A DNA stretch of 40,320 bases. It comes from Bacteroidales bacterium (lineage in GTDB: Bacteria > Bacteroidota > Bacteroidia > Bacteroidales > UBA932). Both the position numbers and the translations under genes were made by a program. The first letter of the stretch is position 1. The number at the start of each line of letters is the position of its first letter. Under the pieces are notes generated by a model that searched no databases, was not told where the DNA came from, and saw only the letters and a list, made by a program, of their open reading frames with translations. Below, piece by piece: positions 5,830 to 9,861 of the stretch. The DNA is taken from positions 1-40,320 of the forward strand of contig JAKSKH010000022.1 of assembly GCA_024401855.1 (NCBI GenBank). Direction: 5' to 3'.

Positions 5830-6766
5830 TGTAATACTTGATAAATATTTCCTTGGGTGTGAGATTGGAGAAAATCTCCTTTGATATATTCCTGAAAGAA
5901 AGCCATTTGATGCGGTTCTCCCCGCTCGGGTGCAACTTGTAGCGCATCCACGCCTTCAAGCGCTTGGTACTTTCCGCGCACCACACCGCAAAACTGAGAA
6001 GGAACCTTTCCGCACGGCTTCTGCGGCCGAAAAAGATAAGGCTTCCCTTTACTGCGGCCGGCCTTATGCACGGAGAAATGCCGGATACGGTGGTTTTCCA
6101 CTTATGGGTGATTGACTGGGCCGCATCAACATACACGGCGTATCCCCGCTCCCTTGCAAGCGTCGAGAGGGCGATGTCTTCCGGGGTGAAGAAGTACCTC
6201 TCGTCAAACCATCCGAGAGACTCGAAAACGGAGGTCCTTATGAGAAAGCAGGCTCCGGTTATGTTGGATGTCCCGTAAACGTTCCCGGTCACGGGAGACT
6301 TGGACGCAGTGTCGTCTATGGGCTCCCTGTGCAGGTGCCACTGCTGGAGCGCATAGTAGATTGCGGGATAGGGAGGACGCCCGCACAGCTGCAGCGTGCC
6401 GTCTGCATTCAGAATCCGCGGGCTAACTATTGCCGCGTTGTCGGGAAGGGAGTCGAAATCCTTCACAAGGGCATCTATGACGGGGGTTGAGAACTCCGTG
6501 TCGTCGTTCAGGACAAAGCAGAAACGTCCTTTCGCCCGCCTGAGCGCAAGGTTGTTGTTCTCGGAAAATCCGCGTATTTCGTCACTCCTTATGAAGGTGA
6601 CCGAAGGGAAATCGGCGCACGCCTTTGCATAGTTCTCATCCGAGAACATATAGGCCACTACCAGTATCTCATAACTCACGCCCGTATTGGATATGACGCT
6701 GCGCAGGCAGGGGTACAGATTGTCCGGCCTGTTCATGCACACTATCACGATACTGACATCCAGCAT
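5822..6766 (-). CDS. GT2-family glycosyltransferase, first gene of the glycan operon
   Basis: GT-A fold, 314 residues. Motifs: VSIVIVCMNRPDNLYPCL, the region after YEILVV, GFSENNNLALRRAKGRFC, and the DxD-like LNDDTEF. A later ED motif (FFTPEDIALSTLARERGY) fits the catalytic-base region of the family. It is the first gene of the minus-strand glycan cluster: ATG at 6766 with a TATATTTG element (6775-6782) just upstream. The downstream GT2 is a paralogue of the same fold but the two are clearly diverged, suggesting successive different linkages. The substrate cannot be read. Confidence 0.9.
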   Translation of the reverse strand: MLDVSIVIVCMNRPDNLYPCLRSVISNTGVSYEILVVAYMFSDENYAKACADFPSVTFIRSDEIRGFSENNNLALRRAKGRFCFVLNDDTEFSTPVIDALVKDFDSLPDNAAIVSPRILNADGTLQLCGRPPYPAIYYALQQWHLHREPIDDTASKSPVTGNVYGTSNITGACFLIRTSVFESLGWFDERYFFTPEDIALSTLARERGYAVYVDAAQSITHKWKTTVSGISPCIRPAAVKGSLIFFGRRSRAERFLLSFAVWCAESTKRLKAWMRYKLHPSGENRIKWLSFRNISKEIFSNLTPKEIFIKYYNG

Positions 6767-6774
6767 ATCAAAGA

Positions 6775-6782
6775 CAAATATA
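6775..6782 (-). promoter_or_regulatory. candidate -7 element of the glycan operon
   Basis: On the minus strand TATATTTG matches the Bacteroidetes -7 consensus TAnnTTTG exactly, 8 bases upstream of the first GT2 ATG. No TTTG lies at the expected 19-20 base spacing; the nearest is 12 bases away. The transcript would be almost leaderless. Weak support. Confidence 0.35.
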
Positions 6783-6851
6783 TCAATTCTTATTCAAAAA
6801 TGGGTTTCCCCCCTGACCCCAAATTATTCATGAAAGGAGGACCGGCATGAC

Positions 6852-6892
6852 GAAAAAAAGAAAAAGAGCTGAAAACGAATTTCAGCTCTTTT
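6852..6892 (-). terminator. intrinsic terminator of tRNA-Leu
   Basis: A perfect 13-bp stem (arms 6862-6874 and 6880-6892) with a 5-nt loop lies 2 bases after the tRNA on its own strand. It is followed on that strand by TTCTTTTTTT (6852-6861). Confidence 0.88.
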
Positions 6893-6894
6893 CG

Positions 6895-6977
6895 TGCGGC
6901 AGGTGAGACTCGAACTCACACAGGCCAACGCCCACTACCCCCTCAAAGTAGCGTGTCTACCATTTCACCACTGCCGC
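6895..6977 (-). tRNA. tRNA-Leu (anticodon GAG)
   Basis: On the minus strand the acceptor arms GCGGCAG and CTGCCGC pair perfectly. The anticodon stem CTACT/GGTAG closes the loop TTGAGGG, giving anticodon GAG (reads CUC and CUU). The T arm is GTGAG-TTCGAGT-CTCAC. An extra variable-arm segment, expected for leucine tRNA, precedes it. Discriminator base A; CCA is not encoded. It has its own promoter and terminator and is a single transcription unit. Confidence 0.95.
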
Positions 6978-6994
6978 ATTCTACTTTGGGACTG

Positions 6995-7026
6995 CAAACA
7001 TAGGTATATTTCTTATATTTCCCAAA
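6995..7026 (-). promoter_or_regulatory. promoter of tRNA-Leu
   Basis: On the minus strand TTTG (7023-7026), 20 bases, then TATGTTTG (6995-7002). Both elements match the Bacteroidetes housekeeping consensus. The predicted start falls a few bases before the mature tRNA 5' end at 6977. Confidence 0.78.
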
Positions 7027-7030
7027 AAAT

Positions 7031-7063
7031 TTTGTAATTTTCTTTCGTTTAGAATTATTTTTG
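7031..7063 (+). promoter_or_regulatory. candidate promoter of feoB
   Basis: TTTG at 7031-7034, 21 bases, then TATTTTTG at 7056-7063, a match to TAnnTTTG. The ATG at 7088 follows after about 25 bases. Lies back to back with the tRNA-Leu promoter. No Fur-like palindrome was obvious to me. Confidence 0.5.
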
Positions 7064-7087
7064 CATTCGGAAGACAAAGACCGGAAT

Positions 7088-9094
7088 ATGAAGTGTAACT
7101 TGAACTGCAGCGCCTGTCCTTTCTCCGCATGCGAGACTGCCGGAGGCAAGGGAATAGTGGTTGCGGTCGTGGGCGCGGATGCGGGAATCCCCGGTCTTGA
7201 TTTCTCGGAATCCCCCTCTCTCGTCTTCAACCACAAGGGCCGCAGGATACGCTTCTTGAACTTCTCCGGAGAGGAATGGCACGTTGGCAGGAAGATACTT
7301 GCAAGCGGTGCCGACATGGTTCTTGATGTCGTTGACTCCACCAATCTCGAGCACGACCTTGTGCTCACCTCCCGTCTGACAGACATGGACTGCCGCAGGG
7401 TCGTTGTGTTCAGCAATTACCATCGTTTGCTTGCAACGGGGCACTCTCTGGACTTCGGTAAGTTCGGAGAACTGATAGGGGCGGGGGCAACCACTTTCGG
7501 GGAATACTCACCGGAGTCCTTCAGCCGCCTGCTGAGCTTTCTGGCCGATGCCTACGAAAACCCTGTCACCAGGCATGTTCACGTGCCCTACGGTCAGGAC
7601 ATAGACAAGGCTCTTGAAGTTCTTTCTTCATCCATATCCTCGCAGATGGTTCTTCCGGCCACCCATCACGACCGCTACATTGCAGTGCGGATGCTTGAAA
7701 ATCCCGGATACATCCGTGAGAACATTTCCGACGACCCGGCTCTCGGTGGGATAGCTGATCTGGCTCTGTCCCGGACCCGATTTCTGGAAAAATCGTACGG
7801 ACAGACCATTTCCGAACTCATTCAGGAAGGGAGAAGGGGCTTTATCCGGGGAGCCCTGCAGGAGACTCTTGTTCACGGAGGCAGCGACTCGGACCACAGC
7901 ATCATACAGAAGATAGACACTGTGCTGACAAGCCGCATCTGGGGCTTCCCGATTCTGGCGGCAGTCCTTTTCTCCGTATTCCAGGCGACGTTCTCGCTCG
8001 GAGCCTTCCCCCAGATGTGGATAGAGTCGGGAGTGTCGGCCCTTGCCTCATTCCTCGCATCCAACCTGCCTTCGGGATGGTTCTCCAACATGCTTGTGAA
8101 CGGAGTTCTTCTGGGTGTGGGAGCCGTTGTGGCCTTCCTGCCGAATATCATCATATTGTTCTTCTTCCTGTCCGTCCTTGAAGATTCGGGATATCTTGCC
8201 CGCGCCGCCTTCCTGATGGACAAGGTGATGCACAGGGTGGGGCTGCACGGGAAATCCTTCATCCCCATGCTCATAGGCTTCGGGTGCAACGTGCCGGCTA
8301 TCATGGCCGCCCGTTCCATAGAGGACCGCCGCGACAGGACGCTGACGATGCTTATGATTCCTTTCATGTCCTGCTCGGCCCGCCTCCCGGTGTATATGCT
8401 TCTGGTGTCGGCCTTCTTCGCGAAGCACAAGGCGCTTGTGATGATATCAATTTATCTTCTGGGCATCGTCCTCTCCATACTGTTCGCCTTCCTCATGAAG
8501 CGCACCCGCTTCTTCCGCAAGGAAGACGAGGACTATGTGTCCGAGCTGCCTGCCTTCCGCCGTCCCACCTGGCGCAGCACCTGGGGACACATCTGGGAAA
8601 GGACGTCGGATTATCTCAGGAAGATATCCACGGTCATACTTACCGCGTCCGTGATAATATGGGCGCTGGAGTACTTCCCCGCGGACCGTACCGGCGGAGG
8701 CGCTGTTAAGGAGGAGTCTTGCCTGGCGATGATAGGACGGGCGATGGAACCCGTTACGAGCCCCCTGGGCTTCGACTGGAGAATGAACGTATGCCTGCTT
8801 ACCGGCCTTCCTGCCAAGGAGGCGATAGTCAGTACAATGGGTATCCTCTTCCATACGGACGATGACGGATCGGCCTCCTTGGCGGAGGTGCTGCGGGACG
8901 GCGGAGACATCAGCGCCCTGACGGCCCTGGCCTTTATGGCGTTTGTGCTGCTGTATTTCCCCTGCGTGGCCACGGTGTCGGCCCTGAAGCGTGAAGCGGG
9001 GGGCAGATGGGCACTCTTCACGGTAGTGCATTCATTGCTCCTTGCCTGGGTGGTGGCATTCATCATACACAATGTGGGACTGTTGATTTTATGA
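7088..9094 (+). CDS. feoB: FeoB-like ferrous iron transporter with degenerate GTPase domain
   Basis: Inner-membrane Fe(II) transporter family, 668 residues. The membrane half is intact. It has the gate-domain motifs GFGCNVPAIMAAR, FMSCSARLPVY, TGLPAKEAIVSTMGILF and FPCVATVSALKREAGG, including the conserved Cys and the K-E pair. The N-terminal half still resembles the FeoB G domain (DVVDSTNLEHDLVLTSRL matches the usual N-V-V-D-A-T-N-L-E-R-N-L), but its nucleotide-binding motifs are gone. The P-loop position reads GADAGIPG instead of GxxxxGK[ST], the DLPG position reads NFSG, and the NMxD position reads SNYH. The N-terminus has Cys in a C-x3-C-x2-C-x3-C pattern (residues 3-14); no FeoA domain is fused. 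Start: ATG at 7088 rather than the TTG at 7061, which overlaps the promoter. CYTH follows 4 bases later. Confidence 0.85.
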   Translation: MKCNLNCSACPFSACETAGGKGIVVAVVGADAGIPGLDFSESPSLVFNHKGRRIRFLNFSGEEWHVGRKILASGADMVLDVVDSTNLEHDLVLTSRLTDMDCRRVVVFSNYHRLLATGHSLDFGKFGELIGAGATTFGEYSPESFSRLLSFLADAYENPVTRHVHVPYGQDIDKALEVLSSSISSQMVLPATHHDRYIAVRMLENPGYIRENISDDPALGGIADLALSRTRFLEKSYGQTISELIQEGRRGFIRGALQETLVHGGSDSDHSIIQKIDTVLTSRIWGFPILAAVLFSVFQATFSLGAFPQMWIESGVSALASFLASNLPSGWFSNMLVNGVLLGVGAVVAFLPNIIILFFFLSVLEDSGYLARAAFLMDKVMHRVGLHGKSFIPMLIGFGCNVPAIMAARSIEDRRDRTLTMLMIPFMSCSARLPVYMLLVSAFFAKHKALVMISIYLLGIVLSILFAFLMKRTRFFRKEDEDYVSELPAFRRPTWRSTWGHIWERTSDYLRKISTVILTASVIIWALEYFPADRTGGGAVKEESCLAMIGRAMEPVTSPLGFDWRMNVCLLTGLPAKEAIVSTMGILFHTDDDGSASLAEVLRDGGDISALTALAFMAFVLLYFPCVATVSALKREAGGRWALFTVVHSLLLAWVVAFIIHNVGLLIL

Positions 9095-9627: not shown

Positions 9628-9861
9628 TTACTCAGCCTTCTGCTCGCATTTGCCGCAGCACTCGGTGGCGTCTGCACACTCACCGCAACACTCCTTGTTC
9701 TCCTCGCTGCACTTTCCACAGCATTCCTTGTTCTCTTCGCTGCACTTGTCGCAGCACTCTACTGCCTCTTCTGCAGCCTTGTTGCATTTGCCGCAATTCT
9801 TGCAAGATGAAACAGCTGCCATAGCTGCAACAATTGCGATTGCCAAAAATACCTTCTTCAT
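9628..9861 (-). CDS. small Cys-rich repeat lipoprotein
   Basis: 77 residues. MKKVFLAIAIVAAMAAVSSC is a lipoprotein signal peptide with lipobox VSSC, so Cys20 would be lipidated. The mature 58 residues hold 15 Cys in repeats of the form E-C-C-x-K/E-C followed by an acidic linker; the unit CCGKCSEENKE is nearly duplicated. There is no other domain. Such Cys density suggests metal binding or a disulfide scaffold at the periplasmic face of a membrane; this is inference. It has a strong promoter (9924-9955) and a terminator on the far side, so it is a monocistronic unit. I do not recognise a named family. Confidence 0.85.
   Translation of the reverse strand: MKKVFLAIAIVAAMAAVSSCKNCGKCNKAAEEAVECCDKCSEENKECCGKCSEENKECCGECADATECCGKCEQKAE

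Follow-up and report, generated by a model that had tools for sequence, protein, structure and literature searches.

Can an iron importer of the FeoB kind work without GTP? This question is raised by a gene on the forward strand of a 40,320-nucleotide stretch of DNA from a Bacteroidales bacterium (the whole stretch that we analyzed, hereafter the window). The NTPase activity of FeoB was reportedly held to be essential by Marlovits in 2002 and by Shin in 2019. The same view is expressed in the available portions of PMC3153494 and PMC4847171, the latter of which presents FeoB as a conundrum, in that the G domain is needed but GTP hydrolysis is too slow for active transport, with the GTP-driven transporter, GTP-gated channel and Fe(II)/H+ antiporter models all open. 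Among the papers listed by our search of the open-access literature, none, mostly judged by title, dealt with a FeoB without a G domain, a truncated FeoB of this type, a pseudo-GTPase FeoB, a GTP-independent FeoB or a FeoB of Cryptobacteroides. The window gene (7088-9094, + strand), a single unbroken open reading frame with an ATG start, encodes a FeoB-derived protein of 668 aa with a degenerate G domain that, judged from its sequence, keeps what the gate needs and is without what GTP needs.

Membership of the FeoB family is clear. The window protein scores 414.4 bits against TIGR00437, above the curated cut-off of 315.65, whereas it reaches 311.7 bits against the PRK09554 equivalog NF007105, below the cut-off of 683. 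Pfam Gate (PF07670), FeoB_C (PF07664) and FeoB_Cyto (PF17910) all exceed their cut-offs, the last marking the FeoB cytosolic helical (GDI-like) domain at residues 168-261 (7589-7870, + strand; 40.1 bits, cut-off 23.4), where the structure model places helices at 170-260. The membrane gate domain occupies residues 285-668 (7940-9091, + strand) and its pore residues are intact. A first-pass annotation of the locus had described all four gate motifs as conserved, and all are present: GFGCNVP at 397-403, SCSARLPVY at 428-436, GLPAKEA at 573-579 and FPCVAT at 624-629. C400, C429, K577, E578 and C626 are identical in 90 of 90 aligned rows (32 with a degenerate G domain, 11 consisting of the gate only and 47 intact), and membrane identity to 17 intact Bacteroidales rows is 45-53%. 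The membrane part is predicted to adopt the fold of the concentrative nucleoside transporters, or CNTs (4pb1, 3tij), although the substrate differs, identity in bacterial CNT rows is 12-13%, and a shared fold shows no function.

The G domain is a different matter. G1 is reduced to GADAGIPG (residues 29-36; 7172-7195, + strand), with no Lys or Ser and no helix after it in the model, NFSG replaces DLPG at G3 (residues 58-61; 7259-7270, + strand), and SNYH replaces NxxD at G4 (residues 109-112; 7412-7423, + strand), Tyr111 of this last remnant being invariant across 20 aligned proteins. The loss of G1, G3 and G4, proposed when the locus was first described, is borne out by alignment to intact FeoBs, that adds G2/switch I and G5 to what is lost. 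Compared with an NTPase-coupled FeoB, the window protein is missing G1, G2, G3 and G4, it contains no FeoA domain, and PF04023 is not found in its 85%-complete genome. Set against the Bacteroidales FeoAB fusion (B. fragilis type, as presented in the available text of PMC8980893), it retains the Gate, FeoB_C and helical domains, but not the FeoA domain, the helix after beta1/switch I, or G1-G5, and the nucleotide site of the NFeoB GTPase domain (PDB 3k53, 9d8b) is absent. Pfam FeoB_N covers only profile positions 63-136 of 156. The fold of NFeoB is nonetheless predicted by the structure model to be retained, and the N-terminal profile aligns with that of intact Bacteroidales NFeoB over residues 22-286 (hhalign 100%, E 7.8e-57).

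A frameshift concealing a normal domain, a concern raised in the first-pass annotation, is unlikely, because regular expressions for the P-loop, DxPG, N[KMQ]xD and GNPN found none in the six frames of 6600-7800; a normal G domain hidden in another frame was rejected on the same grounds. Complete G motifs in relatives had been a second concern, and no aligned row of the clade described below has the full set. Across residues 1-160, dN/dS is 0.065-0.205 in those 8 of 11 pairs whose dS was unsaturated, although the pairs have branches in common and are not independent. The ratio of dN in the remaining G-domain shell to dN in the membrane domain is 0.7-5.2 in degenerate pairs versus 0.43-1.13 in ten intact pairs, which indicates that constraint is partly relaxed. 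Constraint on the shell is weaker than that on working G domains, but it is clearly present. The original description as a decayed or re-purposed domain and not a random fusion is thus supported by the clade, by purifying selection and by the predicted NFeoB fold, and the G domain is almost certainly degenerate but under selection.

The degenerate state is shared by relatives from other metagenome-assembled genomes (MAGs). Searching 149 genomes of the family with the window protein found relatives in 122. A GTDB genome scan gave 164 confirmed relatives, 80 of which were analyzed (the N-termini of 24 were read directly); 45 of these lack DLPG and are of the degenerate type and 35 are of the intact type. 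One degenerate-type protein, L164, is cut by a contig end and was left out of later alignments. Merging gave 65 rows and at least 48 distinct proteins of the degenerate type, the window's included, with distinctness judged by the last 380 residues. At E <= 1e-44, a threshold that weaker members would escape, a profile of three degenerate N-termini matched 24 of the family's 398 genomes. Degenerate proteins are carried by 20 of the 24, including the window's own genome; the other four are G033, G051, G113 and G602, the first three of which, when read, proved to be intact FeoABs, with G602 unread. Named carriers come from horse, ruminant and other sources and include Candidatus Cryptobacteroides and Candidatus Limimorpha; all look like MAGs, and no known carrier is an isolate. 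Across the order, L176 as a query matched 62 of 393 genomes at E 1e-150, a level at which weaker or partial members would escape, and identity above 50% was confined to G000 (57%) and G390 (68% across query positions 225-571, in a 566-aa frame).

A tree built on the membrane domain alone (65 rows; 27 degenerate, 8 gate-only and 30 intact) unites the degenerate rows in a single clade (100/99), which answers the clade check proposed in the first-pass annotation, and puts the gate-only rows in a separate one (100/100). A second tree of other rows (77; 27 degenerate, 9 gate-only and 41 intact) gave the same result. Both trees place these two clades side by side, apart from the intact FeoBs (95/99 with 65 rows, 97/92 with 77 rows), and the idea from a quick tree that the G domain was lost twice is no longer favored. 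One origin and two origins both remain, and they are not distinguishable from this grouping since long stems may mislead; the gate-only stem has a length of about 1.0. In simple pairwise identity, one gate-only protein stands closer to two intact FeoABs (50-51%; G288 and G458) than the window protein does to gate-only proteins (about 42-48%).

Loss of the G domain is graded. In a 62-row alignment of 45 degenerate (window's included) and 17 intact proteins, G2 is missing in all 45 degenerate rows, but what else is lost differs among groups. Six of the seven rows of a P-loop group (L169, L176, L178, L180, L183 and L187) keep GxxxxGKS without switch I or DxxG, and such members could be a binding-only intermediate. 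In the Limimorpha group the P-loop Lys is lost and NxYD is found at G4 in 6 of 6 rows. The P-loop Lys occurs in none of 31 Cryptobacteroides-type rows, among which NNYD is retained at G4 in L160 and L162 and DxTG at G3 in L153 and L155; GSGLSGKT in L161 was rejected as a P-loop, as it belongs to a shortened loop and does not align with G1. In L216 the G domain is almost gone. The gate-only clade, found in the window's family, consists of open frames of 408-471 aa (11 tree rows) with no G domain (loci L040-L053, for example L048 4995-6299). A gate-only query matched 4 of 393 genomes of the order at E 1e-130, and short gate-only frames among them are confined to G010 and G030, which belong to the same family as the window. 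The gene order dxs, gate-only feoB, tuf, with dxs and tuf named by eye from sequence, is seen in five of six loci laid out, the sixth (L041) stopping at a contig end. Gate-only proteins resemble the degenerate ones in having no working G domain, in being the sole FeoB match in 10 of 13 gate-only genomes and in being mostly His-rich before the gate, but they have neither the shell, the helical domain nor the HxxDxSDH motif.

Relative to the FeoAB fusion, the degenerate FeoBs carry three new motifs, CX3CX2C, TxHSxD and HxxDxSDH. CX3CX2C lies at the N-terminus (C3, C7 and C10; 7094-7117, + strand) and is absent from the intact rows aligned. A cluster of cysteines at residues 3, 7, 10 and 14 had been reported here; the first three (C3, C7 and C10) stand and are the only ones that relatives conserve, and the fourth Cys is residue 15 and not 14. 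Of the 48 distinct proteins (window's included), 39 have the motif close to the N-terminus, versus a shuffled mean of 0.003, a placement within the first 20 residues that is partly by construction, as the start was taken as the last Met before the motif; the count is 39 of 40 once the P-loop group and L216 are set aside. Model confidence is low in this region (pLDDT 57 and 51). The FeoB-associated Cys-rich protein PF12669 and FeoC likewise have a Cys-rich motif tied to Feo, according to the available part of PMC8749426, but here the motif is located at the N-terminus of FeoB itself, and PF12669 gave no match at E 0.1 in ten proteins scanned (8 degenerate, the window's among them, and 2 gate-only). 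The second motif, T-x-H-S-x-D (residues 117-122; 7436-7453, + strand), is a motif of the clade, with T.HS.[DN] found in 46 of the 48 distinct proteins and in none of the 17 intact rows. The third is a membrane-proximal His/Asp linker, HGGSDSDH in the window protein (residues 263-270; 7874-7897, + strand). Just before the gate, a regular expression of the HxxDxSDH type matched 30 of the 32 degenerate rows but none of the 47 intact or 11 gate-only ones, and the two degenerate rows missed are variants, the window's own and HSNDDSKH in L057. The mean number of His among the 40 residues before the gate is 3.53 for degenerate, 3.45 for gate-only and 0.53 for intact rows, with at least two His in 32/32, 9/11 and 6/47 rows, respectively, although part of the stretch counted in gate-only rows may precede the true start. 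From these patterns we infer that the Cys and His/Asp motifs may bind metal.

When the 20 degenerate genomes were searched with an intact FeoAB, 16 yielded no further FeoB match, and six of these 16 (G780, G686, G678, G688, G067 and G581) are at least 93% complete. The first-pass annotation had suggested looking for a normal feoAB elsewhere in the window genome; no other FeoB and no FeoA (PF04023) was matched there, although, with this genome 85% complete and the rest likewise drafts, the lack of FeoA or of a further FeoB is uncertain for each genome taken alone. Among the other four, G740 carries an intact FeoAB (GNPNCGKT and DLPG, read) about 2 kb downstream of its degenerate FeoB (L108/L148, 7998-13964), and a hemerythrin-family gene comes after this FeoAB. 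In G763 and G710 a further FeoB match spans the FeoA and G parts, judged by match coverage, and G618 has an N-terminal fragment. FeoA was found in 11 of 37 genomes, namely these four, three gate-only genomes with another FeoB and four intact-FeoAB controls, indicating that FeoA goes with the G domain in this sample. No Nramp exceeded its cut-off in the 37 genomes, two weak fragments falling below it. Zip was rejected as a substitute importer, being over cut-off in 21 of the 37 and in 7 of the 16 sole-degenerate genomes with no clear link; the window genome has none. A conserved partner gene was likewise rejected, as the commonest neighbor families reach at most 7 of 45 loci (window locus left out). 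At two loci (L138 2356-3303 and L139 10030-10977) a hemerythrin-HHE and LuxR-type HTH protein is encoded directly downstream of the degenerate feoB on the same strand, assigned by Pfam in L138 and by sequence cluster in L139. About 530 bp from the window feoB lies a Cys-rich 77-aa open reading frame (9628-9861, - strand) that is secreted/lipoprotein-like, has CCGKCSEENKE repeats and gave no Pfam match at E 0.01.

Upstream of the window feoB, 32 bp before the ATG, is a -7-type box, TATTTTTG (7056-7063, + strand), that fits TAnnTTTG, which we take to be the -7 box consensus of Bacteroidales promoters. Of the 43 degenerate feoB genes examined (out of 46, several rows being near copies), 31 have TAnnTTTG in the 80 bp upstream, versus a shuffled mean of 1.7 and maximum of 5. 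The TTG at 7061 is an unlikely start because it lies inside the box. Scored against what we assume to be the 7-1-7 Fur box consensus, the window gene has a Fur-like box of 9/14 that is not significant (p 0.54), and boxes of 12-13 of 14 precede 4 of 42 genes (L142, L144, L145 and L149), 63 bp before the start. A tRNA-Leu(gag) gene (6894-6977, - strand) lies about 110 bp upstream on the opposite strand.

We favor, with moderate confidence, the reading that the window protein is a permease for divalent metal that derives from FeoB and most likely carries Fe(II), and that its G-domain shell probably binds no nucleotide. Nucleotide-free metal transport by the degenerate FeoB is the component we infer to be fairly likely, Fe(II) is the substrate toward which we lean, and a gate that senses metal through cytosolic His/Asp or Cys sites is conceivable but doubtful. 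The Cys/metal-gated variant of the first-pass annotation likewise stays a hypothesis, one that the conserved Cys motif and the additional His/Asp motif would fit. The gate, with a modeled fold like that of the ion-driven CNTs, would let metal run down an electrochemical or ion gradient and need no nucleotide to do so. GTP and FeoA would once have had a regulatory role that is now lost and that metal-responsive sites facing the cytosol (the HxxDxSDH linker and the N-terminal CX3CX2C) may have taken over, and the shell may be kept for assembly or regulation. The first-pass annotation had suggested that the protein may be nucleotide-independent, and the lost motifs, the joint absence of FeoA and the 16 of 20 genomes with no other FeoB match support this indirectly; for nucleotide binding itself, its absence is a prediction from sequence.

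A switch to another metal as substrate (Mn, Zn, Co or Ni), or to a role as a metal sensor, with nucleotide coupling dropped as the role changed, would account for the new His/Asp and Cys motifs and for another FeoB match in 4 of 20 genomes, and in the available text of PMC10434189 P. gingivalis FeoB1 is labeled as transporting manganese and FeoB2 iron. We regard it as unlikely, as the gate cysteines and their neighbors are the same as in intact FeoBs, 16 of 20 genomes have no other FeoB match, no Nramp is over cut-off, and there are the Fur-like boxes before 4 of 42 genes and the hemerythrin gene adjoining feoB in two loci. Improbable too is that another GTPase or an intact FeoB acts in trans on the degenerate protein, the partner-driven variant of the first-pass annotation: with neither another FeoB nor a FeoA match in 16 of 20 genomes, a second FeoB is disfavored as the partner there, and no neighbor family exceeds 7 of 45 loci, but G740, with an intact FeoAB close by, and the matches in G763, G710 and G618 fit such an arrangement, and an unrelated GTPase might still be the partner. 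GxxxxGKS in six of seven P-loop-group rows and NxYD in all Limimorpha rows would be expected if the shell bound nucleotide non-canonically or if P-loop members kept a switch; we consider this very improbable, as the window protein possesses neither the P-loop Lys nor switch I, and none of G3, G4 and G5. That the named carriers are MAGs could hint at a pseudogene, chimera or assembly error, but at least 48 distinct proteins from several hosts and studies, dN/dS well under 1 and a recurrent promoter-type box make this barely credible, and misassembly or a pseudogene is also spoken against by the clade.

Extending the reading of a nucleotide-free permease, we tentatively propose that the FeoB membrane domain may be an autonomous CNT-fold secondary metal carrier, for which GTP and FeoA would be a dispensable regulatory layer that one Bacteroidales lineage took apart in stages (P-loop only, then shell, then gate only), with metal-binding sites on the cytosolic side taking its place. 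Our data suggest that an iron importer of the FeoB kind can work without GTP. Natural FeoBs found as the sole one in their genome, with neither a GTP site nor FeoA, would separate transport from nucleotide use with no engineering, and the stepwise series that runs from P-loop members to gate-only ones would provide ready-made test proteins.
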